Both the position numbers and the translations under genes were made by a program. The notes under the pieces were generated by a model. That model saw nothing but the letters and a program-made list of their open reading frames with translations, was not told the origin of the DNA and ran no database searches. A stretch of DNA of 64,000 nucleotides, taken from NCBI RefSeq assembly GCF_012911015.1, contig NZ_WVVV01000020.1, positions 737-64,736 of the forward strand, given 5' to 3'. Shown piece after piece: positions 3,773 through 26,809 of the stretch (position 1 is its first letter; every line of letters starts with the position of its first letter). The stretch comes from Chelativorans sp. ZYF759 (GTDB lineage Bacteria; Pseudomonadota; Alphaproteobacteria; Rhizobiales; Rhizobiaceae).

Positions 3773-4783
3773 TCAGGCGTGGCCGTTGCCCTGCGAGGCG
3801 GACGGGAAGTCGGCGGGATCGAAGACATATTCCGTCGAGCAGAATTCGCACGACACCTTGATCCGGCCATCCTCGATGCTCTCGGCGATTTCTTCTTGCG
3901 TGAAGCCGTCGAGGATCGACTTGATGCGCTCGCGCGAACACGAGCAGTCGTCGCGCACCGGCGTGCCTTCGAACACGCGCACCCCGCGCTCGTGGAACAA
4001 CCGGAACAGGAGCCTTTCCGCCCCCACCGTGGGATCGAGCAGTTCGTCCGCCTCGATCGTCTCGAGCAGCGCCCGCACTTCGTGCCATGCATCGTCGGTC
4101 GGGTCGGTCCGCATTTCCATCTGGTCGTCGCCATCGCCGCCCGGCAGGTCCGGCAGGCGCATGCGCTCCGGTGCGTCGGGCAGGAACTGGGCGACCAGGC
4201 CGCCGGCACGCCAGTGCAGGCGCGCGCCGTCTCCCGGCACCATCTGGCGGGCGACCGCCAGCCTCACCTCGGTCGGCAATTGCTCCGACTGTCGGAAATA
4301 GGTGCGGGCGGCGTCTTCCAGCGAGATGCCGTTCAACTCGACGATGCCTTGGTAGCGCTGCATGTGGCGGCCCTGATCGACCGTCAGCGCCAGCACGCCC
4401 TTGCCCAGCAGATCCGGCGGCGCGTCCTTGCCGGCGGCAGTCGCCTCGGCGACGCGGTCCGGATCGAAGCTCGCATAGGCCCGCAGCGAATGCGGCGTCG
4501 CGAAATCGGCCACCAGCATGTCCACCGGCCCGTCGGAACGGGTCTGCAGGATGAACTTGCCCTCGAATTTCAGCGAGGTGCCCAGTATGACCGTCAGCGC
4601 CATCGCCTCGGCCAGCAGCCGGGCGACGGGTTCGGGATAGTCGTGGCGTTCGAGGATCTGGTCGACCACCGGGCCGAGTTGCACCACCCGGCCGCGCGCA
4701 TCGAGCGCTTCGACCTGGAACGGCACGACATGATCGTCGCCGGCGAAACCGAACTCGCCCAGCTTCCTGTCCGCTTCGGGCAC
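3773..4783 (-). CDS. hslO: Redox-regulated molecular chaperone Hsp33
   Basis: Hsp33 is a cytosolic holdase activated by oxidation. This 336-residue protein carries the zinc-binding cysteines near its C-terminus: CSC at residues 280-282 and CEFC at 312-315, the CxC...CxxC redox switch. The N-terminal region has the family's GTSLKFEGKFILQTRSDGPV and MLVADFATP segments. Translation probably starts at a GTG with a GAGGTAGG ribosome site. The gene sits downstream of argF-argD on the same strand, 108 bases after argF ends, a common arrangement in Rhizobiales. It is somewhat longer than the E. coli protein (about 290 residues), as is usual in this group. Confidence 0.95.
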   Translation of the reverse strand: MPEADRKLGEFGFAGDDHVVPFQVEALDARGRVVQLGPVVDQILERHDYPEPVARLLAEAMALTVILGTSLKFEGKFILQTRSDGPVDMLVADFATPHSLRAYASFDPDRVAEATAAGKDAPPDLLGKGVLALTVDQGRHMQRYQGIVELNGISLEDAARTYFRQSEQLPTEVRLAVARQMVPGDGARLHWRAGGLVAQFLPDAPERMRLPDLPGGDGDDQMEMRTDPTDDAWHEVRALLETIEADELLDPTVGAERLLFRLFHERGVRVFEGTPVRDDCSCSRERIKSILDGFTQEEIAESIEDGRIKVSCEFCSTEYVFDPADFPSASQGNGHA

Positions 4784-4890
4784 TGTACCTACCTCACGAT
4801 ATGAAACGAGAAGCCGCTGCCGCAGCCCGCCTGTTGTGCGGCTCTTCCGGGCCGCATGAAGGCGTCAGATAGTGCCTTGGGTCGGCACGA

Positions 4891-5820
4891 TCAACCGCGC
4901 GGATCGTGCCCCATGCACCACAAGAGGATCGCCTTCTGCGCATGCAGGCGGTTCTCCGCCTCGTCGAAGACCACCGAATGCGGGCCGTCTATCACCGCAT
5001 CCGTCACCTCCTCGCCGCGATGGGCGGGCAGGCAATGCATGAAGAGCGCGTCGGGCGCCGCCTTTGCCATCAGTTCCTCGTTGACCTGGTACGGCAGGAA
5101 GACGTTGTGACCGCGCGCGCGGTGTTCCTGCCCCATCGAGACCCAGGTGTCGGTGACCACGCAGTCGGCCCCGGTGACGGCCTCTTCGGCCGACGCCTTG
5201 AACTCGACGCGCCCGCCGCGCGTTCGCGCCCATTCGACGTAGTCCGACGCGGGTTCGCTGCCTTCCGGCACCGCGATGTTGAGGCGGAAGGAGAAGCGCG
5301 CGGAAGCTTCGACCAGCGAGTGCAGCACGTTGTTGCCGTCACCCGTCCAGGCGAAGAGCCGGTCGCGCACGGACCCGCGATGCTCCTCGTAGGTCATGAG
5401 GTCGGCCATGATCTGGCAGGGATGGGTGTCGTCGGTCAGCCCGTTGATGACCGGCACCGTCGCGTTTTCCGTCATCTCCCTGAGGCGATCGTGCGAGGTG
5501 GTGCGCATCATGATGATGTCGACATAGCGCGACAGCACGCGTGCCGTGTCGGCGATGGTCTCGGATCGGCCGAGCTGCATCTCGGTGCCGGTCAGCATCA
5601 GCGTCTCGCCGCCGAGCTGGCGCATGCCGACATCGAACGAGACGCGCGTGCGCGTCGACGGCTTGTCGAAGATCATCGCCAGCACCTTGCCATCGAGGGG
5701 GCGGTCGCGTTCTCCGGCCTTCAGCCTCTCCTTTCGGCCGATGGCGCCGTCCAGCATGGCGCGCAGGTCAGCGGCATCGGTCAGGGAAAGATCGGTGAAG
5801 TGGCGGGTGCCGTTCAGCAT
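4891..5820 (-). CDS. argF: Ornithine carbamoyltransferase
   Basis: This 309-residue enzyme condenses carbamoyl phosphate with ornithine to give citrulline in arginine synthesis. The carbamoyl-phosphate motif STRTR lies at residues 55-59, HPCQ at 133-136 and the ornithine-binding HCLP at 262-265. TWVSMGQE, also typical, lies at about 225-232. Length matches anabolic OTCases. It begins 10 bases after argD ends, so argD and argF form one operon. Confidence 0.97.
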
Positions 5821-5830
5821 ATGTCTCGTC

Positions 5831-7027
5831 CTAACCGTTGGTGCCGGTCGCCGGCATTGCCAGGCTTGCGGCGCCTTCGCGCAGCTTGTCCAGCGCCGCC
5901 CTGATATCCTCGTCGGTCACCGTCAGCGGCGGCAGCAGGCGCACCACGTTCTCGCCCGCCGGCACGGCCAGGAGACGGGCGTCGCGCAGCGCCGTGTTGA
6001 CGACCCCGTTCGGCTGCCGGCACTTCAGGCCAAGCATCAGGCCCGCGCCGCGGACATCCTCGAACACATCCGGGAACTCGTCGACGATGGAAGCAAGTCC
6101 TTGCTTCAGCAAAAGCGACTTGCGGGTGACCTCGTCGAGGAACCCGTCTTCCAGCACGATGTCGAGCACGGCGTTGCCGACCGCCATGGCCAGCGGATTG
6201 CCGCCGAAGGTCGTGCCGTGGGTGCCGGGCGTCATCGCCTCGGCCGCTGCTTCGGTCGACAGGCACGCGCCCATCGGAAATCCGCCGCCGATGCCCTTGG
6301 CGATCGCCATGATGTCGGGTGCTGCACCCGACCATTCATGGGCAAACAGCCGACCGGTCCGACCAATGCCGGACTGCACCTCGTCGTAGATCAGCAGCAT
6401 GTCGCGCTCGTCGCACAGCGCGCGCAGCTTCTGCAGGAATGCGGCGGGCACCGGGCGGATGCCGCCTTCACCCTGGACGGGCTCGATCAGGATCGCGGCG
6501 GTCGCGTCGCTGACGCAGGCCATCAGGGCGTCCCAGTCGTCGAAGGGTACCTGGTCGAAGCCGTCGACCTTGGGACCGAAACCCTCGAGATATTTCGCCT
6601 GGCCACCGGCTGCGATGGTGGCCAGCGTACGCCCGTGGAACGCGCCCTCGAAGGTCACGATCCGGAAGCGCTTCGGGTTGCCTTTCGCGTAATGGTAGCG
6701 ACGCGCCGTCTTGATGGCGCATTCCAGCGCCTCCGCACCCGAATTGGTGAAGAACACCCGGTCGGCGAAGGTGTTTGCCACCAGCCGTTCGCCCAGGCGG
6801 CGCTGTCCCGGAATCTCATAGAGGTTGGAGACATGCCAGAGCTTGCCGGCCTGCTCGGTCAAGGCGGCCACGAGATGGGGATGGCAATGTCCGAGTGAAT
6901 TCACCGCGATGCCGGCTGCGAAGTCGAGATATCGCTCGCCCGAAGCCGTCAGAAGCCAGGAGCCCTCACCCCGCTCGAATGCGAGGGGCGCGCGCGCGAA
7001 GGATTCATATAGCGCCGAACCGCTCAT
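5831..7027 (-). CDS. argD: Acetylornithine/succinylornithine aminotransferase
   Basis: This PLP enzyme makes N-acetylornithine in arginine synthesis and can also act as succinyl-diaminopimelate aminotransferase in the lysine route, whose dapD and dapE lie elsewhere in the window. Class III motifs are present: [37 protein letters not shown], and [11 protein letters not shown], whose lysine binds PLP (residue 249 counted from the upstream ATG). I chose the ATG at 7027 because GGAG lies six bases before it. An in-frame ATG at 7042 would add five residues and lacks such a site. argF follows 10 bases later. Confidence 0.96.
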
Positions 7028-7077
7028 CTTCGTCTCCGTCATCCGCTGAGGCGGCCAAATAACCGCCTAAAACCAAA

Positions 7078-7135
7078 ACGCCGCCTCGGCGGCGGCGTAA
7101 ACACCGTATATCCTGCGTTTGTCGGATCAAGTCAA
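7078..7135 (-). promoter_or_regulatory. Probable argD promoter and GC-rich hairpin at the 5' end of the transcript
   Basis: On the minus strand TTGACT (7135-7130) is followed 19 bases later by TATACG (7110-7105), a plausible sigma-70 promoter with a longish spacer. The expected start point, near 7098, coincides with the first base of an inverted repeat (ACGCCGCC / GGCGGCGT arms at 7098-7078, five-base loop) followed by TTTTGG. A second smaller hairpin (AGGCGG / CCGCCT, 7068-7049) comes before argD. Both promoter and hairpin roles are inferred. Confidence 0.4.
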
Positions 7136-7209
7136 CGTTCCGGCTTTGGCACAGATTGCCCGGCAATTGACAGCGCGCGAACTCCAAGCTGGGGAAAAAC
7201 GAAAAAAGC

Positions 7210-7356
7210 GATTCGCCTTGCCGCCCCGACTCTTGTCACGGAGTCAGCCGATAAGGTAGTTTCGCAACCTACAGACTATATTTGGTGCGGCAAAACCTTC
7301 CATCACCGTAGATGTGGTGTCACCCGACTGGGTCGGGCGGCGGTGGATTCGGATTC
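7210..7356. promoter_or_regulatory. Cluster of five GANTC (CcrM) sites in front of gcrA
   Basis: GANTC occurs at 7210-7214, 7228-7232, 7241-7245, 7346-7350 and 7352-7356. At this base composition about 0.5 would be expected in a stretch this long. GcrA acts at GANTC-methylated promoters in alphaproteobacteria, so the cluster fits methylation-dependent or autoregulated transcription of gcrA. The rest of the roughly 340-base gap between argD and gcrA holds the argD promoter region and nothing else that I recognise. Confidence 0.5.
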
Positions 7357-7383
7357 CGCAGGCAACAACAGGAGCCTGGCCAC

Positions 7384-7890
7384 ATGAACTGGACCGACGA
7401 GCGCGTCGAACTTCTCAAGAAGCTCTGGGCGGAGGGGTTGAGCGCCAGCCAGATCGCGACGCAGCTTGGTGGTGTCAGCCGGAATGCCGTGATCGGCAAG
7501 GTGCATCGCCTGAAGCTGTCGGGCCGCGGGCGAAACTCGGCGTCCACGCCACGCCCGAAAAAGACCGCGACGAATACCGGACCGCGTCCCGCCGCGCGCA
7601 CGCAGCGCCCGGTCACCACGACGGTCGGCGCGACCGCGTTGCAGGCCCGCTTCGACGCCGAGCCGGACGTTCAGGCCAGGGCGCGTCCGCAGGACAATGT
7701 CGTCATCCCGATCCCGCTGAAGCTGAAGCTGGTGGAACTGGGCGAGCGCACCTGCAAATGGCCGATCGGCGATCCGATGCATGACGATTTCGCCTTCTGC
7801 GGTGTGGATGTGGGGGAATGCGGACCCTATTGCAGCTATCACTCGCGGCTTGCCTACCAGCCCGCCAACGAGCGCCGCAAGGCTCGCTGA
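7384..7890 (+). CDS. gcrA: Cell-cycle regulator GcrA
   Basis: GcrA is a sigma-70-binding cell-cycle transcription regulator that works with CcrM methylation of GANTC. The 168-residue protein starts MNWTDERVELLKKLWAEGLS, followed by a helix-turn-helix (SASQIATQLGGVSRNAVIGKVHRLKLSGRG). It then has a basic linker and the C-terminal domain CKWPIGDP...FCG...GPYCSYHSRLAYQP with its conserved cysteines. The open frame extends upstream to 7312, but homology to the GcrA start and a CAGGAGCC ribosome site select the ATG at 7384. It is divergent from argD. Confidence 0.96.
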   Translation: MNWTDERVELLKKLWAEGLSASQIATQLGGVSRNAVIGKVHRLKLSGRGRNSASTPRPKKTATNTGPRPAARTQRPVTTTVGATALQARFDAEPDVQARARPQDNVVIPIPLKLKLVELGERTCKWPIGDPMHDDFAFCGVDVGECGPYCSYHSRLAYQPANERRKAR

Positions 7891-16967: not shown

Positions 16968-17042
16968 TGGAGCGGGCGATGGGAATCGAACCCACGACAT
17001 CAAGCTTGGGAAGCTTGCGTTCTACCTCTGAACTACGCCCGC
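16968..17042 (-). tRNA. tRNA-Gly (anticodon CCC)
   Basis: The minus strand folds as a cloverleaf: acceptor GCGGGCG / CGCCCGC, D arm GTTC-AGAGGTA-GAAC, anticodon arm CAAGC-TTCCCAA-GCTTG, T arm GTGGG-TTCGATT-CCCAT, discriminator T and an encoded CCA. The loop TTCCCAA gives anticodon CCC, decoding GGG. The roughly 270 bases between it and the TetR operator hold nothing that I recognise. Confidence 0.95.
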
Positions 17043-19086: not shown

Positions 19087-19287
19087 GTCAGGCGAGTTGC
19101 ACAGCCCCCCCGGGCTGTCAATTCACGCTGCCCGTGATCGTGTAACAAGTTCGAGCATATCCGCGATCAGCGGTACGCCCGGGGCCACCGCGCGTCGGCG
19201 TCAGGCGGCCCGTCTGCCACGGCTTGACGGGCAGGCCGCCGCATCTCACTTCTGCCTTGAATCCAATCACGCCAGGGGACAGTGGCC

Positions 19288-20076
19288 ATGGCCGCACTCA
19301 AATCGCTCATCGAATCGCGCCGCTTCGACATGGTGATCACCGTACTGATCGTCATCAACGCAATCACGCTCGGGTTGGAGACCTCGGCCGAGGCCATGTC
19401 CGCTTTTGGGCCGGTGCTGATCGCCATCGACAGGCTCATTCTGGGTGTCTTCGTCCTGGAACTTCTGGCCCGCTTTGCGGTCTACCGGACTGATTTCTTC
19501 CGCGACCCGTGGCGCATCTTCGACCTCCTGGTGGTCTCCGTTGCTTTCGTGGCCGCAACCAGCAACCTGTCGGTGCTGCGCGCGCTGCGCATTCTGCGGG
19601 TCCTACGGCTGATCACCGTGGTGCCTTCCATGCGCCGGGTGGTCGGTGGGCTTGTCGCCGCCTTGCCGGGCATGGGATCGGTCGTCATGCTGCTCATGCT
19701 CGTCTATTACGTGTTTGCGGTGATGGCGACCAAGCTCTTCGCGGCCTCCTTCCCGGACTGGTTCGGATCACTCGGCGCGTCTGCCTATTCGCTGTTTCAG
19801 ATCATGACCCTGGAAAGCTGGTCGATGGGAATCGTGCGCCCCGTCATGGAAATCTACCCCTGGGCCTGGGTGTTCTTCATTCCTTTCATCGTGACGACGT
19901 CCTTTGCGGTCCTCAACCTGTTCATAGGCATCATCGTCTCGGCCATGCAGGAAGAAAGCGCGGAGGCAGCGGTGGCCGAGCGCGGGGCCGTGCATCACGA
20001 CCAGGAGGTTATCCTGGCGGAAATCCGCGCGCTACGCGAGGAAGTGAGGGCGTTGCGCTCGGGCAAGCCCGGCTGA
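19288..20076 (+). CDS. Bacterial voltage-gated sodium channel (BacNav type), copy 1
   Basis: This roughly 262-residue, six-helix ion channel has an S4 segment with arginines every third residue (RALRILRVLRLITVVPSMRR). Its selectivity-filter sequence TLESWSM is the TLESW signature of NaChBac-like sodium channels. It ends in a polar coiled coil (EEVRALRSG region) that tetramerises such channels. Translation may begin at the ATG at 19288 or at a GTG two codons earlier, with AGGGG upstream. A near-identical paralogue lies at 21324, after ppk2. The channel probably passes sodium in response to voltage and could serve motility or pH homeostasis. Confidence 0.9.
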   Translation: MAALKSLIESRRFDMVITVLIVINAITLGLETSAEAMSAFGPVLIAIDRLILGVFVLELLARFAVYRTDFFRDPWRIFDLLVVSVAFVAATSNLSVLRALRILRVLRLITVVPSMRRVVGGLVAALPGMGSVVMLLMLVYYVFAVMATKLFAASFPDWFGSLGASAYSLFQIMTLESWSMGIVRPVMEIYPWAWVFFIPFIVTTSFAVLNLFIGIIVSAMQEESAEAAVAERGAVHHDQEVILAEIRALREEVRALRSGKPG

Positions 20077-20177
20077 GTGCATGGACACACACCTGGCGCA
20101 ATTGATCTTGCGCAATTTCTTAGCCGGCTTCGCCTGTTAGGGTTGGACAGAGGACGTCGGTGCACGAGGGAACGCTG

Positions 20178-21215
20178 ATGGGGGAGGACAAGTCAGCCAC
20201 AAGCAGGGAGGGGCGCCTTGCGGCGAGGCGTCCCAGCCGCAATTCCCGCCCGCAGGAACCTGCCGGCGCGGCCGCCGAGCCTCTGGTGGCAGTTCTTGAG
20301 GAGAAGGCAGCTGCCGAGCCTGCCGCGTCGCCCGCCGGAACCCACCGACTTGCTGAACTGCGCCATGACCGGGACGAAATCCGGCGCCTTTTCGAGCAGG
20401 GTGAATATCCCTACCGCACCAAGGTCGCACGCCGCCCCTACGAGGCGAAGAAGGCGGAATTGCAGGTCGAGTTGCTGAAGCTCCAGGAATGGGTCAAGGC
20501 GAGCGGCGCCAAGATCGTGATGCTCTTCGAAGGGCGCGACGCTGCGGGCAAGGGCGGCACCATCAAACGCTTCACCGAGCATCTCAACCCGCGTGGGGCG
20601 CGGGTCGTCGCACTGGACAAGCCGACCGACCGGGAACGATCGCAATGGTACTTCCAACGCTATGTGGAGAACCTGCCGGCGGCCGGTGAAATGGTCTTGT
20701 TTGACCGATCCTGGTACAACCGCGCTGGCGTCGAGCGCGTGATGGGCTTCTGCACGCCAAACGAATATCTCGAATTCATGCGCCAGACGCCTGAGCTCGA
20801 GCGCATGATCGTGCGCAGCGGCATCATGCTTTTCAAATACTGGTTCTCGGTCACTCGGGACGAGCAGATACGCCGTTTCCAGTCCCGCGAGCACGAGCCG
20901 TTGAAACAGTGGAAGCTTTCGCCCATCGACCGGCAGTCGCTCGACAAGTGGGACGATTATACCGAGGCGAAGGAGGCGATGTTCTTCTATACCGACACCG
21001 CCGATGCCCCATGGACGATCATCAAGTCGAACGACAAGAAGAGGGCCCGCCTCAACTGCATGCGCCACTTCCTAAACTCGCTGCCTTATGACGGGAAGGA
21101 CCTGCAGGCCATCGGCCATGTGGACCCGCTGATCGTCGGGTCGGGCGGCGACGTGATCGGCAAGAGCGCGCATATTCTGGGCGCCAGCCTGCATCCCGGA
21201 CATCGCAAGTCCTGA
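20178..21215 (+). CDS. ppk2: Polyphosphate kinase 2
   Basis: PPK2 transfers phosphate between polyphosphate and nucleoside diphosphates, often forming GTP or ATP. The 345-residue protein has the Walker A-like EGRDAAGKGG at about residues 118-127, the Walker B-like DRSWYNR at about 176-182, and the lid segment QWYFQRYVENLPAAGEMVLF. A disordered Ala/Pro-rich head of about 60 residues precedes the domain. GAGGGAA before the ATG at 20178 favours that start over a GTG at 20160. The gene sits between two sodium-channel paralogues. Confidence 0.95.
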   Translation: MGEDKSATSREGRLAARRPSRNSRPQEPAGAAAEPLVAVLEEKAAAEPAASPAGTHRLAELRHDRDEIRRLFEQGEYPYRTKVARRPYEAKKAELQVELLKLQEWVKASGAKIVMLFEGRDAAGKGGTIKRFTEHLNPRGARVVALDKPTDRERSQWYFQRYVENLPAAGEMVLFDRSWYNRAGVERVMGFCTPNEYLEFMRQTPELERMIVRSGIMLFKYWFSVTRDEQIRRFQSREHEPLKQWKLSPIDRQSLDKWDDYTEAKEAMFFYTDTADAPWTIIKSNDKKRARLNCMRHFLNSLPYDGKDLQAIGHVDPLIVGSGGDVIGKSAHILGASLHPGHRKS

Positions 21216-21323
21216 CGCGGAACGGCTGACCGGTCCCGCGCCCTGCGATTGAAGCTTCCCGCTTGACTGGAATAGCGCGTCATCCCACTTGTGCGGCCAC
21301 TGGAATCGTTCGGGGAACAAGCC

Positions 21324-22115
21324 GTGGCCGCACTCAAGTCGCTCATCGAATCGCGTCGTTTCGAAATGGCGATCACGGTCCTTATCGTCATCAATGCCAT
21401 CACCTTGGGGCTTGAGACCTCTGCCGACGCGATGGCTGCCTTCGGCCCGTTGCTCGTCGCGCTCGACCGGATCATCCTGGCGGTATTCGTGCTGGAATTG
21501 CTGGCGCGCTTCGCGGTCTATCGGACCGAGTTCTTCCGCGATCCCTGGCGCATCTTCGATCTCCTGGTGGTGTCGATCGCCCTGGTTCCGGCCACGGGAA
21601 ACCTTTCGGTGTTGCGCGCCCTGAGAATCCTGCGCGTTCTGCGCCTCATCACCGTTGTTCCGTCGCTGAAGCGTGTCGTCGGCGGGCTGATGGCCGCGGT
21701 GCCGGGCATGGGGGCGGTCGTGCTTCTGCTGTCGCTCGTCTTCTACGTGTTCGCGGTGATGGCGACCAAGCTCTTTGCCGCCTCGTTCCCCGACTGGTTC
21801 GGCTCGATCGGCGCTTCAGCCTACTCGCTCTTTCAGATCATGACGCTCGAAAGCTGGTCGATGGGCATCGTGCGCCCGGTAATGGATGTCTATCCGTGGG
21901 CGTGGATTTTCTTCATCCCCTTCATCGTGACCACCTCCTTCGCCGTGCTCAATCTCTTCATCGGTATCATTGTCTCGGCGATGCAAGAGGAGAGCGAGGA
22001 GGCGGCCGTCGCCGAACGGGGCGCGATGCACCGCGAGCAGGAACTGATCCTTGCCGAGATCAGGGCGCTGCGCGACGAGGTGAAGGCATTGCGGACCGAC
22101 GCTCCGGGCGGATGA
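21324..22115 (+). CDS. Bacterial voltage-gated sodium channel (BacNav type), copy 2
   Basis: This is a paralogue of the channel at 19288, with long identical stretches such as SLIESRRF, ELLARFAVYRT, LRALRILRVLRLITVVPS and the filter TLESWSM. By eye the proteins are nearly nine-tenths identical and the DNA clearly less, so the duplication is not recent or codons have been re-sorted under selection. The start used here is a GTG at 21324, matching the first copy's VAALKS/MAALKS start, with GGGGA upstream. A GTG at 21291 is the alternative. The C-terminal coiled coil is preserved. Confidence 0.9.
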   Translation: MAALKSLIESRRFEMAITVLIVINAITLGLETSADAMAAFGPLLVALDRIILAVFVLELLARFAVYRTEFFRDPWRIFDLLVVSIALVPATGNLSVLRALRILRVLRLITVVPSLKRVVGGLMAAVPGMGAVVLLLSLVFYVFAVMATKLFAASFPDWFGSIGASAYSLFQIMTLESWSMGIVRPVMDVYPWAWIFFIPFIVTTSFAVLNLFIGIIVSAMQEESEEAAVAERGAMHREQELILAEIRALRDEVKALRTDAPGG

Positions 22116-22169
22116 CGCGGGTCCATGACCATGCTGCGGATTAACCATGTCCGGTATCGGTGCTTGATC

Positions 22170-22946
22170 ATGGTTAGCGGTTCCTTAATTTCGACGGTAG
22201 CCAATAGGAACCGTCTTTTGCCTTCCACCGCCATCCGCGCCGCGCGCGCCTTCTTCCAGCCCGTCGCCTCCAATCCCTACGAGAACGATCAGAGTCTGGA
22301 ATACAGTTTCCGCGCCCGGCGCTTCGCGCGCGTGCAATCACTTCTCGACGACATCATGCGCGAGAAGGAACATGTCGAAATCCTCGACATGGGCGGGACC
22401 GAGACCTACTGGCACATCGGTCGTGAGTTCCTTCGGCGCCACCGGTCACGGCTGCATATCACGCTGATAAACCCCCAGGAGCAGACGGTCTCGGACCGCG
22501 ACCTGTTCTCGGCGAGCCGTGAAAGCGCAGTGGATCCGCAACTGATGGCGGAGCGGCGGTTCGATTTGGTCCATTCCAATTCTGTGATCGAGCATGTCGG
22601 CAGCTGGTCCGAATTCGAGCTGTTTGCCCGGAACACCCGCCGGCTCGCGCCCCGCTATTTCGTCCAGACACCCAATTTCTGGTTTCCCTACGAGCCGCAT
22701 TTCCGCTTCCCCGGGTTCCAGTATCTGCCCAAGCGCCTGCGCGCCGAACTGCTGACCCGCTTCCAACTCGGCTTTTTCGACCGTATCGGTTCGCTGGAAG
22801 AGGCGCGCGAGATCGTCCACTACCACCGCCTGTTGTCGACGCGGGAGATGGGGACGCTCTTTCCAGACGGCGAGGTCGTTCATGAGAAATGGATGGGCGT
22901 CAACAAGTCGATCATGGCGATCCGGTCCGAGCCGCCGCTGACCTAG
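22170..22946 (+). CDS. Class I SAM-dependent methyltransferase-like protein
   Basis: The core VEILDMGGTETYWHIGREFL resembles the SAM-binding glycine loop, followed by RLHITLINPQE (second-strand region) and FDLVHSNSVIEHVGSWSEF (fourth-strand motif with the SNSVIEH of Methyltransf_11/12 proteins). The substrate is unknown. Start codons at 22125, 22170 and 22218 (a TTG preceded by AGGAA) are all possible. I give the middle one. An inverted repeat (TAACCATG / CATGGTTA, 22142-22176) covers the first two, which argues mildly for the TTG. The gene follows the second channel and is convergent with the dCTP deaminase gene. Confidence 0.7.
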   Translation: MVSGSLISTVANRNRLLPSTAIRAARAFFQPVASNPYENDQSLEYSFRARRFARVQSLLDDIMREKEHVEILDMGGTETYWHIGREFLRRHRSRLHITLINPQEQTVSDRDLFSASRESAVDPQLMAERRFDLVHSNSVIEHVGSWSEFELFARNTRRLAPRYFVQTPNFWFPYEPHFRFPGFQYLPKRLRAELLTRFQLGFFDRIGSLEEAREIVHYHRLLSTREMGTLFPDGEVVHEKWMGVNKSIMAIRSEPPLT

Positions 22947-22952
22947 TGGCGC

Positions 22953-24044
22953 TCAGGCGGCGCGAAAATGTTTCGACAGCTTCAGGCCCTGCGCCTGGTA
23001 ATTTGACTTGAGGTCCGTCCCGTAGAGCGCCTTCGGCAGCGCGGCCATGCGTTCGTAGACGAGCCGGCCGACGATCTGGCCATGCTCCAGGATGAAGGGC
23101 ACCTCGTGGCTGCGCACTTCGAGCACGGCTCGGCTGCCTGTCCCGCCTGCTGCTGAATGGCCGAAACCGGGATCAAAGAAGCCCGCATAATGCACCCGGA
23201 ATTCGCCCACCAGCGGGTCGAATGGGGTCATTTCAGCGGCGTAGCCGGGCGGTACATGGACTGCCTCGCGAGAGACCAGGATGTAGAACTCGTCGGGATC
23301 GAGGATGAGCTCGTTGCGCCCGCGCACCCTGACCGGTTCCCAATAGTCGAGAATGTCGTGGGCATCGCGCCTGTCGACGTCGATCAGGCCGGTATGTCGC
23401 TTGCCGCGATAGCCGACGAGACCGCCAACCTCACCCGAAAGGTCGATGGAGAGGGCGATGCCGCCGCCCGATATGTTCGGGCGTTCGGCAGCGACCAGCG
23501 TCTCGGCGGCATGGAGATCGTGAAGTTCGGCCTCGCTCAGCGTGCCGCCGCCCTGGCGGAACCGGACCTGAGACAGCCGCGAGCCGGCACGCGCCAGGAT
23601 CGGAAAGGTCCGCGGGCTGATTTCCAGGTAGAGCGGCCCGGAATAGCCGGCCGGGATCTTGTCGAATTCCTCGCCATTGTCCGACATGACGCGGGTGAAG
23701 ATGTCGAGCCTGCCCGTGGAGCTCTTCGGATTGGCGGAGGCCGAGATGTGGGCGGGAAGCTCCAGACTTTCCATCAGCGGCACGATGTAGACGCAGCCGG
23801 TTTCAAGGACCGCGCCCTCGGTGAGGTCGAACTGGTGCAGCTTCAGCCGCTCGAGCTTGTCGACCACGAGGCTGTCGGGACCCGGCAGGAAAGAGGCGCG
23901 CACCCGCCATGCCATGGCGCCCAGCCTCAGATCGAGGCTCGCCGGCTGAATCTGGTCCGCGTCCAGCGCACGCGTTGCCGTCAGTGCGCCCGTGTCGAAC
24001 AGGGCCGCGATCTCGTGGTCCGGGAGTATGCCTGCTTCGGCCAC
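22953..24044 (-). CDS. dcd: 2'-deoxycytidine 5'-triphosphate deaminase, long alphaproteobacterial form
   Basis: This enzyme converts dCTP to dUTP for thymidylate synthesis. The 363-residue protein is about twice the length of E. coli Dcd and looks like two Dcd/dUTPase-fold halves. The first is LDLRLGAMAWRVRASF to SSTGRLDIFTRVMSDNG, and the second is YFILVSREAVHVPPGYAAEM-like ILVSREAVHVPPGYAAEMTP to HYAGFFDPGFG. The latter resembles the Dcd catalytic region with its conserved AGFIDPG-type motif. It starts at GTG with GGAGAAACAG upstream. It is divergent from the metZ riboswitch, which begins only 80 bases away. Confidence 0.85.
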   Translation of the reverse strand: MAEAGILPDHEIAALFDTGALTATRALDADQIQPASLDLRLGAMAWRVRASFLPGPDSLVVDKLERLKLHQFDLTEGAVLETGCVYIVPLMESLELPAHISASANPKSSTGRLDIFTRVMSDNGEEFDKIPAGYSGPLYLEISPRTFPILARAGSRLSQVRFRQGGGTLSEAELHDLHAAETLVAAERPNISGGGIALSIDLSGEVGGLVGYRGKRHTGLIDVDRRDAHDILDYWEPVRVRGRNELILDPDEFYILVSREAVHVPPGYAAEMTPFDPLVGEFRVHYAGFFDPGFGHSAAGGTGSRAVLEVRSHEVPFILEHGQIVGRLVYERMAALPKALYGTDLKSNYQAQGLKLSKHFRAA

Positions 24045-24123
24045 CTGTTTCTCCGCATCTGGTCGGGTTCCTGCTTAGCTTTCCCGGCGATTGACGCAAG
24101 AAGCACGACGCACTAAAGCAGAT

Positions 24124-24182
24124 TTATCCCGTGGTGATTTGGCCGGCCGGCTTGCAGCCACGTTAAACAAGTCGCTAAATAG
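24124..24182 (+). promoter_or_regulatory. SAM-II (SAM-alpha) riboswitch upstream of metZ
   Basis: The stretch contains the conserved SAM-II core: CGTGGTGATTTGGCCGGCCG, then GCTTGCAGCCACG, then TTAAACAAGTCGCTAAA. CGTGG (24130-24134) pairs with CCACG (24158-24162), and the 3' part provides the pseudoknot strand. SAM-II riboswitches turn off methionine-synthesis genes in alphaproteobacteria when S-adenosylmethionine is plentiful. It lies 63 bases before the metZ start. Confidence 0.93.
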
Positions 24183-24244
24183 GGCCGAATTTCGGACCGG
24201 TTGCGACTTCCCGCGGCCGGTTTTTTGTTGTTTGGAACAGGCAT

Positions 24245-25435
24245 ATGACCGACAGGACCAAGGATTGGAAGCCGGCAACCGCTCTGGTGCATGGCGGCAC
24301 GCTGCGCTCCGGATTTGGCGAGACCTCCGAGGCGATTTTCCTCACCCAGGGCTTCGTCTACGAAAGCGGCGAAGCGGCGGAGGCGCGCTTTAAGGGCGAC
24401 GAACCGGGCTTCATCTACTCGCGCTATGCCAATCCCACCGTCGACATGTTCGAGAAGCGCATGTGCCTTCTGGAGGGCGCGGAGGACGCCCGTGCAACGG
24501 CTTCCGGTATGGCCGCGGTCTCGGCAGCGCTTTTGTGCGGCATCCGAGCCGGCGATCATGTGGTTGCAGCCCGCGCCCTGTTCGGCTCGTGCCGGTGGGT
24601 CGTGGAAAAGCTGATGCCGCAATATGGCGTCGAGACCACGCTCGTCGACGGTACACGCATGGAAGAATGGGAGCAGGCGGTCAGGCCGAACACCAAGCTG
24701 TTCTTCCTGGAGAGCCCCACGAACCCGACGCTTGAAGTGGTCGACGTCGCGGCGGTATCCCGTCTCGCCAATTCCGTCGGCGCGCGCGTCGTTGTCGACA
24801 ATGTCTTTGCCACGCCGCTGTTTCAGAAGCCGCTGGAACTGGGCGCCCATATCGTCGTCTATTCGGCGACCAAACACATTGACGGCCAGGGGCGTTGCCT
24901 GGGCGGTGTCATCCTGTCCGACAAGGCGTGGATCGACGAGAATCTGCACGACTACTATCGCCACACCGGCCCCGCCCTGTCGCCCTTCAATGCCTGGACG
25001 CTGCTCAAGGGGCTCGAGACTTTGCCGCTGCGGGTACGCCAGCAGACCCAAAGCGCGGCCGCCATCGCCGATCACCTCGCCGATCATCCGAAGATCGGGC
25101 GCGTCATCTATCCGGGCCGCAAGGACCATCCCCAGGCAGACATCGTGGCACGGCAGATGAGCGGTGGCTCGACCCTGATCTGCATGGAACTCAAGGGCGG
25201 CAAGGAGGCCGCCTTCGCCTTCCAGAACGCGCTCGAGATCGTGCGCATTTCCAATAATCTGGGCGACGCCAAGAGCCTCATCACGCATCCAGCCACCACG
25301 ACGCACAAGAATCTTGCAGAGGAAGCACGCATCGAACTCGGCATTAACCCCGGTACGTTGCGGCTTTCAGTGGGTCTGGAGGACGTCGGTGACCTTATCG
25401 ATGACCTCGATCGCGCCCTTGATCGTTCTGCTTAA
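24245..25435 (+). CDS. metZ: O-succinylhomoserine sulfhydrylase
   Basis: This 396-residue PLP enzyme makes homocysteine directly from O-succinylhomoserine and sulfide. Cys/Met-metabolism family motifs are present: YSRYANPTVDMFEKR, ATASGMAA, FLESPTNPTLEVVD, VVVDNVFATPLFQKPL, and YSATKHIDGQGR with the PLP lysine at residue 210. The C-terminal SKSLITHPATTTH variant (AKSLITHPATTTHKN) is typical. Control by the SAM-II riboswitch fits the methionine pathway. It stands as a single gene, with the sRNA next downstream. Confidence 0.95.
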   Translation: MTDRTKDWKPATALVHGGTLRSGFGETSEAIFLTQGFVYESGEAAEARFKGDEPGFIYSRYANPTVDMFEKRMCLLEGAEDARATASGMAAVSAALLCGIRAGDHVVAARALFGSCRWVVEKLMPQYGVETTLVDGTRMEEWEQAVRPNTKLFFLESPTNPTLEVVDVAAVSRLANSVGARVVVDNVFATPLFQKPLELGAHIVVYSATKHIDGQGRCLGGVILSDKAWIDENLHDYYRHTGPALSPFNAWTLLKGLETLPLRVRQQTQSAAAIADHLADHPKIGRVIYPGRKDHPQADIVARQMSGGSTLICMELKGGKEAAFAFQNALEIVRISNNLGDAKSLITHPATTTHKNLAEEARIELGINPGTLRLSVGLEDVGDLIDDLDRALDRSA

Positions 25436-25500
25436 TAACTGTTCACGATGCGACAATTGTGCGCTGCAAAAAACGCATAGGTGCCATGCACAACACAGCG

Positions 25501-25528
25501 TTGTGGGCACGCGGGGGAGAGGCTAGAT
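25501..25528 (+). promoter_or_regulatory. Probable promoter of the alpha-r14 sRNA
   Basis: A -35-like TTGTGG at 25501-25506 and a -10-like CTAGAT at 25523-25528 are 16 bases apart, and transcription would start near 25536, just before the first hairpin. An imperfect inverted repeat (CACAAC / GTTGTG, about 25490-25505) overlaps the -35 and might bind a regulator. Confidence 0.5.
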
Positions 25529-25535
25529 AAATACC

Positions 25536-25648
25536 CATGACGCATCTACCTCCTCCCAGATGCTGATTACCCGAATGCGGTGCACCTCCTCCCGCGCCGC
25601 ATTTGAGATCCAGCCCGCTGCCACCTCCTCCCGGCAGCGGGCTTTTTC
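25536..25648 (+). ncRNA. Alpha-r14 (SuhB-type) small regulatory RNA
   Basis: Three successive hairpins each present the loop ACCTCCTCCC, an anti-Shine-Dalgarno sequence. Their arms are GCATCT/AGATGC (25542-25563), AATGCGGTGC/GCGCCGCATT (25574-25603) and AGCCCGCTGCC/GGCAGCGGGCT (25612-25643). The last is followed by TTTTT and serves as terminator. This is the layout of the alpha-r14 family in rhizobia, trans-acting sRNAs that block ribosome binding on target mRNAs. A promoter (TTGTGG, 16 bases, CTAGAT at 25501-25528) sits just upstream. The 230-base gap between metZ and the next gene is explained by it. Confidence 0.92.
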
Positions 25649-25663
25649 TTTTTGCGCTCTTGC

Positions 25664-26269
25664 TCATCCGAATAGCCGTCGGGCCTCCAGTATGCGCCAG
25701 AACGCCGTCCAGAAGCACATGGCGGCGAACACCAATGCCAGCGGGGCGAATGATCCGGGAAAAAGGCAGAAGAGGACGAAGAACAGGATCGTTTCCGTTC
25801 CTTCGGCCAGTCCTGTCGTGAAGTAGATCGATTTCGGCCCGCGCACGCGTGTTTCCATGCCCAGCCGCGCAGCAATGGCCGAGAACGCCAGAAAACTGGC
25901 GCCGTTGACGTAGAAGGAAACCAGCAACACGGCGCCCGCCAGCGCGTTCGCCCCCGGCTCGGCCAGGATGAAACCAAGTGGAACCGCGCCGTAGATGGCG
26001 AAATCCAGCACGATGTCGAGATAGCCTCCGAGTTCAGTGGACCCCTTCAGCCGCGCGATGGCGCCGTCGAGGCCGTCTCCAAGACGGTTGAGAAGAAAGA
26101 GCGCCAGCCCGAGCACATACCATTCGAATGCGATGGCGGCGGCTGCGGCGAGGCCCAGGACCCATGAGGCTACTGTCACCTGGTTGGCTGTTATGCCGAT
26201 ACCCGCCAAGCGCTCTGCGGAATGCTCCATGAGCGGATCGATCCGCGATTTCGCCCAGCCGTCAAGCAT
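25664..26269 (-). CDS. CDP-alcohol phosphatidyltransferase family protein
   Basis: This 201-residue membrane enzyme carries the family signature [25 protein letters not shown] with its paired DG..AR and G...D...D aspartates, followed by five or six hydrophobic helices. Family members join a CDP-linked lipid or alcohol to a second alcohol during phospholipid synthesis. The exact product (for example phosphatidylglycerol phosphate or a phosphatidylinositol-like lipid) cannot be told. It is divergent from apaG and convergent with the sRNA. Confidence 0.88.
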
Positions 26270-26416
26270 TGTTCATTCCCTTCGATCCGCTTCTATCTAC
26301 AGTCGTCGCGGGGGATCACACAGGGGCATCATGCGGAAGTCTGGTCACTTTCAGGAGACGGCCCGTTGACCGCAGGCGTTTGGTTGCCAAGATCAGATGG
26401 CGAAAGGCAGTTTGAC

Positions 26417-26809
26417 ATGTACAGCACCACCACACGCGGGATCGCCGTTGAGGTCGAATCCTTCTTCCTCGAGGACAGGTCCGATCCCGGCGAGGATCAC
26501 TATGTCTGGGGCTACCGAATCACCATCGCCAACAACTCCGACCAGGAAGTTCAGCTTCTGTCGCGATACTGGCGCATCACCGACGGACACGGACGCGTGG
26601 AGGAGGTGAAGGGCCCGGGCGTGGTTGGGGAGCAGCCCGAACTCGCGCCTGGTGACAGCTTCCAGTACACGTCCGGATGCCCTTTGAAGACCTCGTCCGG
26701 CATCATGGTGGGCAGCTACACCATGCGTACGGCTGGCGGTGAAATCTTCGACGTCGCCATTCCCGCTTTTTCGCTGGACCTGCCGGGCGCCAGGCGCTCC
26801 GTCAATTGA
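26417..26809 (+). CDS. apaG: ApaG protein
   Basis: The 130-residue protein matches the ApaG family, a fibronectin-III-like beta-sandwich. It has a start like [20 protein letters not shown], then [41 protein letters not shown], and [21 protein letters not shown]. ApaG has been linked to cobalt and magnesium efflux and to diadenosine tetraphosphate levels, but its biochemical role is unsettled. The ATG at 26417 gives the standard length. The longer open frame upstream is not supported. Confidence 0.95.

Follow-up and report, generated by a model that had tools for sequence, protein, structure and literature searches.

Bacterial sodium channels (BacNavs) serve as the chief structural models for their eukaryotic relatives and are regarded as homotetramers. 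The closest described systems, NavAb (PDB id: 5vb2) and NavMs (PDB ids: 5hvx, 6sxg), share with the two channels reported here a six-helix fold, the TLESWSM filter, four arginines in S4 and a C-terminal helix that follows S6. Unlike NavAb and NavMs, the present channels are two paralogues of one genome, which lie a single gene, ppk2, apart. The product of this gene belongs to the P. aeruginosa type of polyphosphate kinase 2 (PPK2; TIGR03707), whose curated cut-off it exceeds (391.7 bits versus 301.8, over a match that spans 227 residues), but it carries an N-terminal extension of ~80 residues outside the family match and its gene sits between two channel genes. In alkaliphilic Bacillus, such channels are described as serving the sodium cycle, pH homeostasis and motility (PMC4225499), and by analogy the present pair may have a similar role in the sodium cycle.

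The locus lies in a 64-kb (64,000-nucleotide) stretch of a contig of Chelativorans sp. ZYF759, referred to here as the window (Table 1). The GTDB family of this genome includes Mesorhizobium microcysteis and Aliihoeflea aestuarii. A sequence-only reading had described two BacNav paralogues that bracket ppk2 and run in one direction. Profile searches confirm that the observation is real: channels A and B match PF00520 (Ion_trans) with E-values of 1.6e-40 and 7.7e-42 (139 and 144 bits, cut-off 25), ppk2 matches PF03976 (E 2e-106) in addition to TIGR03707, and all three genes are on the forward strand. The start of channel A in that reading was an in-frame GTG at 19282, two codons upstream of 19288, and ppk2 likewise has an in-frame GTG upstream, at 20160. 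There is no third PF00520 match in the genome at E ≤ 0.001, channels A and B being all of its Ion_trans genes, and one further PPK2 is encoded on another contig. The pair is not an assembly repeat: 22% of the bases differ, and no identical run exceeds 23 nt.

Table 1. Features of the channel–ppk2–channel region of the window, and channel loci of relatives with the TLEGWSD filter.
Feature	Position	Strand	Remarks
hslO, argF, argD, gcrA block	3773–7890		upstream of the channels in the window; after apaG in relatives
tRNA-Gly (CCC)	16968–17042	-	adjoins acyltransferase-SGNH gene
Candidate sigma70-like promoter of A	19223–19251	+	CTTGAC-N17-TCACTT; ends 36 nt before start codon
Channel A	19288–20076	+	262 aa; predicted NavAb/NavMs-like voltage-gated sodium channel; faster-evolving copy
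Weak terminator-like hairpin, channel A–ppk2 gap	20096–20113	+	-8.5 kcal/mol, z -1.6; 17/200 shuffles fold as well
ppk2	20178–21215	+	345 aa; polyphosphate kinase 2, P. aeruginosa type
Candidate sigma70-like promoter of B	21262–21290	+	CTTGAC-N17-CCACTT; in ppk2–B gap; ends 33 nt before start codon
Channel B	21324–22115	+	263 aa, GTG start; slower-evolving copy; adjoins the family's usual downstream neighbours
ORF between channel B and dcd	22125–22946	+	273 aa; no family match
Slot neighbours	22953–26809		dcd (-), metZ-like Cys/Met PLP enzyme (+), CDP-alcohol phosphotransferase-like (-), apaG-like (+)
TLEGWSD channel loci			L007-L009, L011-L015, L018, L020-L022, L024, L026, L031, L035, L047, L058, L063, L096

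The two channel proteins align without gaps, with 226 of 262 residues identical (86%) and 252 positives, and are a further example of the well-known BacNav kind. The alignment upholds the identity of the TLESWSM filter and of S4 in the two copies, as first read from the sequence: residues 93–114, within which S4 lies, are the same in both. The S4 arginines R98, R101, R104 and R107 are invariant among 37 aligned channels. The closest PDB sequences are those of NavMs (5hvx, E 1.6e-75) and NavAb (5vb2, E 3.4e-75), and NavAb 5vb2 is also the top fold match (E 2e-16, TM 0.77) of an AlphaFold2 monomer model of channel A (mean pLDDT 85.9, pTM 0.58). A helix of residues 74–85, a loop of residues 86–91 and a helix of residues 92–111 are read in this model as S3, the S3–S4 loop and S4, respectively. 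The C-terminal helix (residues 191–257) comes from a monomer prediction only, and the heptad register of its coiled coil was assigned by eye; in this register A and B have identical core letters (positions 242, 246, 249, 253 and 256), so mixing of the two is possible.

Compared with 35 other channels, channel A alone is without L87 (present in 94% of them) and P89 (100%) and has the further changes G92S and E225A, while the changes of channel B are L126V and S131A. Positions 87, 89 and 92 are in or at the S3–S4 loop of the model, and copy A thus lacks the loop Pro and Leu of the compared relatives. Three of the five private changes of A fall inside six residues, for which the simulated chance is 0.009, a value computed after the fact and with F140Y counted; the latter is private to A relative to the 35 channels, but Tyr is the commoner residue (10/18) among 18 near relatives. 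Since the three loop changes private to A are clustered, a difference in gating is a fair guess, and altered gating of copy A through the lost S3–S4 loop residues is plausible.

In relatives, the genes that come after the channel are dcd (-), that of a Cys/Met PLP enzyme (+), one that we take to be CDP-alcohol phosphotransferase-like (-) and one that is presumably apaG-like, and then hslO, argF, argD and gcrA (the names dcd, PLP enzyme, hslO, argF, argD and gcrA are Pfam-based). Of 108 channel loci, 54 have dcd no more than 3 kb from the channel, and 60 have it somewhere in the available flank. In the window, a 273-aa ORF comes next after channel B, ahead of dcd and its companions, so it is B that occupies the downstream side of this slot. 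The ORF has no Pfam or NCBIfam match at E ≤ 0.001, and nothing related to it occurs in the 108 channel loci; by eye, we take it to be methyltransferase-like. The hslO–gcrA block is displaced to the far side of the channels, which shows that the region is rearranged, and none of the usual upstream neighbours of relatives' channels is found upstream of A. In four relatives, a second PPK2 subfamily is encoded 10–12 kb from the channel (L083–L086, loci picked for their PPK2 matches). In the Chelativorans genome, this second PPK2 is found on another contig (L087, C5) along with three of the genes that neighbour it, so the ancestral block has been broken. The ORFs that overlap the tRNA-Gly gene of the window are probably not genes.

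In a tree of 102 channels (110 rows, from which four with stops and four identical to others were dropped), A and B are sisters with support of 100/99. The channel nearest to A is B (86%), any other channel found being at most 78% identical. The local duplication supposed in the sequence-only reading is supported. Judging from these sequences, the pair is specific to the lineage of the Chelativorans genome. By branch length and unique changes, copy A is the faster-evolving one: the terminal branches are 0.17 for A and 0.053 for B, and in each of 18 comparisons with near relatives, which are mutually non-independent, A shows the greater number of unique changes (12–20 versus 6–11). The largest contrast (20 versus 8) corresponds to p of ~0.02 and the smallest (12 versus 11) to nothing. 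At the DNA level the copies are 78% identical. Their four-fold sites are saturated (identity of 0.439 at 139 shared sites, compared to 0.401 ± 0.036 for re-dealt third bases), and a recent duplication is rejected on this ground. The same saturation makes the dN/dS of ~0.07 (dN 0.088, dS 1.19) a rough value and dS a rough lower bound on age. Silent divergence between A and B is at about the level seen between genera, whereas their proteins diverge about half as far as those of different genera (dN 0.088 versus 0.15–0.22). Silent saturation combined with low protein divergence implies that purifying selection has preserved the two copies intact over a long time.

A search for repeats at the edges of the duplication found nothing clear. 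The local match between A and B is weak upstream (z 1.9) and absent downstream, which leaves no duplication boundary visible. The stretch upstream of A matches those of two relatives (L105, z 6.7; L084, z 4.7), and that upstream of B reaches a z of at most 3.6 (L110). That BacNav genes are usually single copy holds in the family, where two copies (E ≤ 1e-60) are present in 4 of the 128 genomes that have a channel, and less so in the order, where two or three copies are found in 15 of 151 (E ≤ 1e-55). Another family of the order contains a tandem BacNav pair (G708, locus L142; 8160–8978 and 9520–10347) that is arranged head to tail like A and B and arose independently of them. Unlike A and B, its members are 604 bp apart and 70% identical, with one TLESWSM and one TLEGWSD filter, and have no ppk2 match within their 19 kb.

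The filters of the 102 channels are TLESWSM (80), TLEGWSD (20), TLDGWSS (1) and TLENWSM (1). Nineteen of the TLEGWSD rows group in a single clade (Mesorhizobium, Pseudaminobacter and others), to which the TLDGWSS channel (L005) is a weakly supported sister, and the twentieth (Pannonibacter, L058) stands apart, so TLEGWSD appears from the tree to have arisen at least twice. These channels fall inside the canonical clade, several of them in the same dcd slot. The native calcium channel CavMr carries the filter TLEGWVD and depends on Gly4; according to its authors, canonical BacNavs are not seen to combine Gly4 with a polar or charged seventh residue (PMC7041947). The filter of CavMr is close to that of the 20 canonical-clade channels, which are possibly, by this likeness, convergent calcium channels within BacNav. 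The literature searched yielded no mention of TLEGWSD or TLEGWS.

Each channel is preceded by a candidate promoter. The two share the -35 box and spacing of the Sinorhizobium/rhizobial sigma70 consensus, CTTGAC-N17-CTATAT (PMC2873474). Their common pattern, CTTGAC-N17-YCACHT, has two matches on both strands of the 64-kb window, one before A and one before B. Of the upstream stretches of other channels, 104 distinct ones, 12 also match it (shuffles: 0.0, with a maximum of 0 in 50 rounds) and 34 match CTTGAC alone (shuffles: 4.3). The pattern was drawn by eye from 25 upstream rows that include A and B, and 11 of the 12 matches are within those rows, which makes the enrichment partly circular and the pattern a feature of near relatives at best; the sole match outside is L097. 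A scan for E. coli-type promoters found none (0.9 expected). Terminator-like sites in the region number five, compared to 2.6 ± 2.0 in shuffles. The candidate promoter in the ppk2–B gap and the weak hairpin after A favour separate transcription of B, and each channel probably has its own promoter.

The likely explanation of the locus is a duplication in place, within the lineage of the Chelativorans genome, of a regular chromosomal BacNav gene from the Mesorhizobium group together with its promoter; an unrelated ppk2 would have ended up between the copies at that time or later. Each gene, probably from its own promoter, would give rise to a NavAb-like, voltage-gated, sodium-selective tetramer that passes Na+ inward on depolarisation and so feeds a sodium cycle of antiporters, symporters and perhaps flagella. 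Both copies would have been held for long by purifying selection while A diverged in the S3–S4 loop of its voltage sensor, and the pair would most likely provide two gating behaviours or more channel, and not a polyphosphate-coupled device. The ppk2 product would be a separate enzyme, predicted to phosphorylate nucleotides from polyphosphate. Import of copy A, or of A with ppk2, from a close relative would agree with the missing upstream neighbours of A and with the rearrangement of the region (the hslO/argF/argD/gcrA block at 3.7–7.9 kb), but the identity of A to B and their sisterhood in the tree disfavour any transfer of A from elsewhere and make such an origin very unlikely.

It is even harder to believe in a single operon of all three genes, with nucleotides or polyphosphate made by ppk2 acting as regulators of the channels or with polyphosphate use triggered by sodium entry. 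A common transcript is possible for genes on one strand with gaps of ~100 nt, but a candidate promoter of B lies in the second gap and a weak hairpin follows A. Over 394 family genomes (channel match at E ≤ 1e-60, ppk2 match at E ≤ 1e-120), 128 have the channel, 60 a P. aeruginosa-type ppk2 and 29 both, with 19.5 expected; ppk2 is present in 29 of 128 genomes with a channel and in 31 of 266 without (Fisher p 0.007, relatedness uncontrolled). The notion that the two genes never occur together elsewhere thus fails for co-occurrence, seen slightly above chance in 28 other genomes, and stands for adjacency: the next closest pair is 36.5 kb apart, and nine genomes besides Chelativorans have both genes on one contig, separated by 36 kb to 2.7 Mb. 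Inspection of 126 other channel loci, which comprise 122 distinct channel sequences and of which 94 have at least 5 kb on each side, finds no P. aeruginosa-type ppk2, and adjacency is found neither in 151 relatives, among the ppk2 matches listed, nor in 80 named loci. The channel–ppk2–channel order occurs in no other genome searched, the compared genomes being all outside the genus, so that the second copy may be confined either to this assembly, which the sequence-only reading had named as a refutation, or to the genus. Furthermore, ppk2 moves independently of the channel: among 11 ppk2 loci, whole neighbourhoods are common only within a genus (L114 with L115, L117 with L122), two stray matches connect genera, and the window shares nothing but ppk2. 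Because adjacency is absent elsewhere and the ppk2 neighbourhood is not conserved, the two genes are best read as accidental neighbours. The linkage at 10–12 kb in four relatives might be counted in favour of an operon, but it concerns a different PPK2, separated from the channel by eight or so genes within a long stretch of chromosome that is conserved. The literature searched contains no joint mention of polyphosphate kinase 2 and a bacterial sodium channel. The link to polyphosphate metabolism that the sequence-only reading had raised is not borne out, and a sodium–polyphosphate system is not supported.

The duplicated channels could also meet in mixed tetramers and form a natural heteromeric BacNav with gating set by the A:B ratio, a possible but rather doubtful arrangement. 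The shared coiled-coil core, the identical filter and S4, and proteins that are still 86% alike despite saturated silent sites are consistent with it, but selection on each copy alone would give the same similarity, and such channels are called homotetrameric in the literature. The best-ranked literature matches include no native BacNav paralogue pair or heteromer. A full two-subunit BacNav, in which A and B co-assemble, the S3–S4 loop of A shifts voltage dependence and sodium entry is tuned by the A:B ratio from two promoters, is unlikely.

As a long-kept natural pair with mostly conservative differences and with private voltage-sensor loop changes in one copy, the two channels would offer a clean natural experiment on how gating diverges and subunits mix. 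A polyphosphate link would have been more surprising, but it does not hold up. Co-assembly of A and B, if true, would make this the first native heteromeric bacterial sodium channel.
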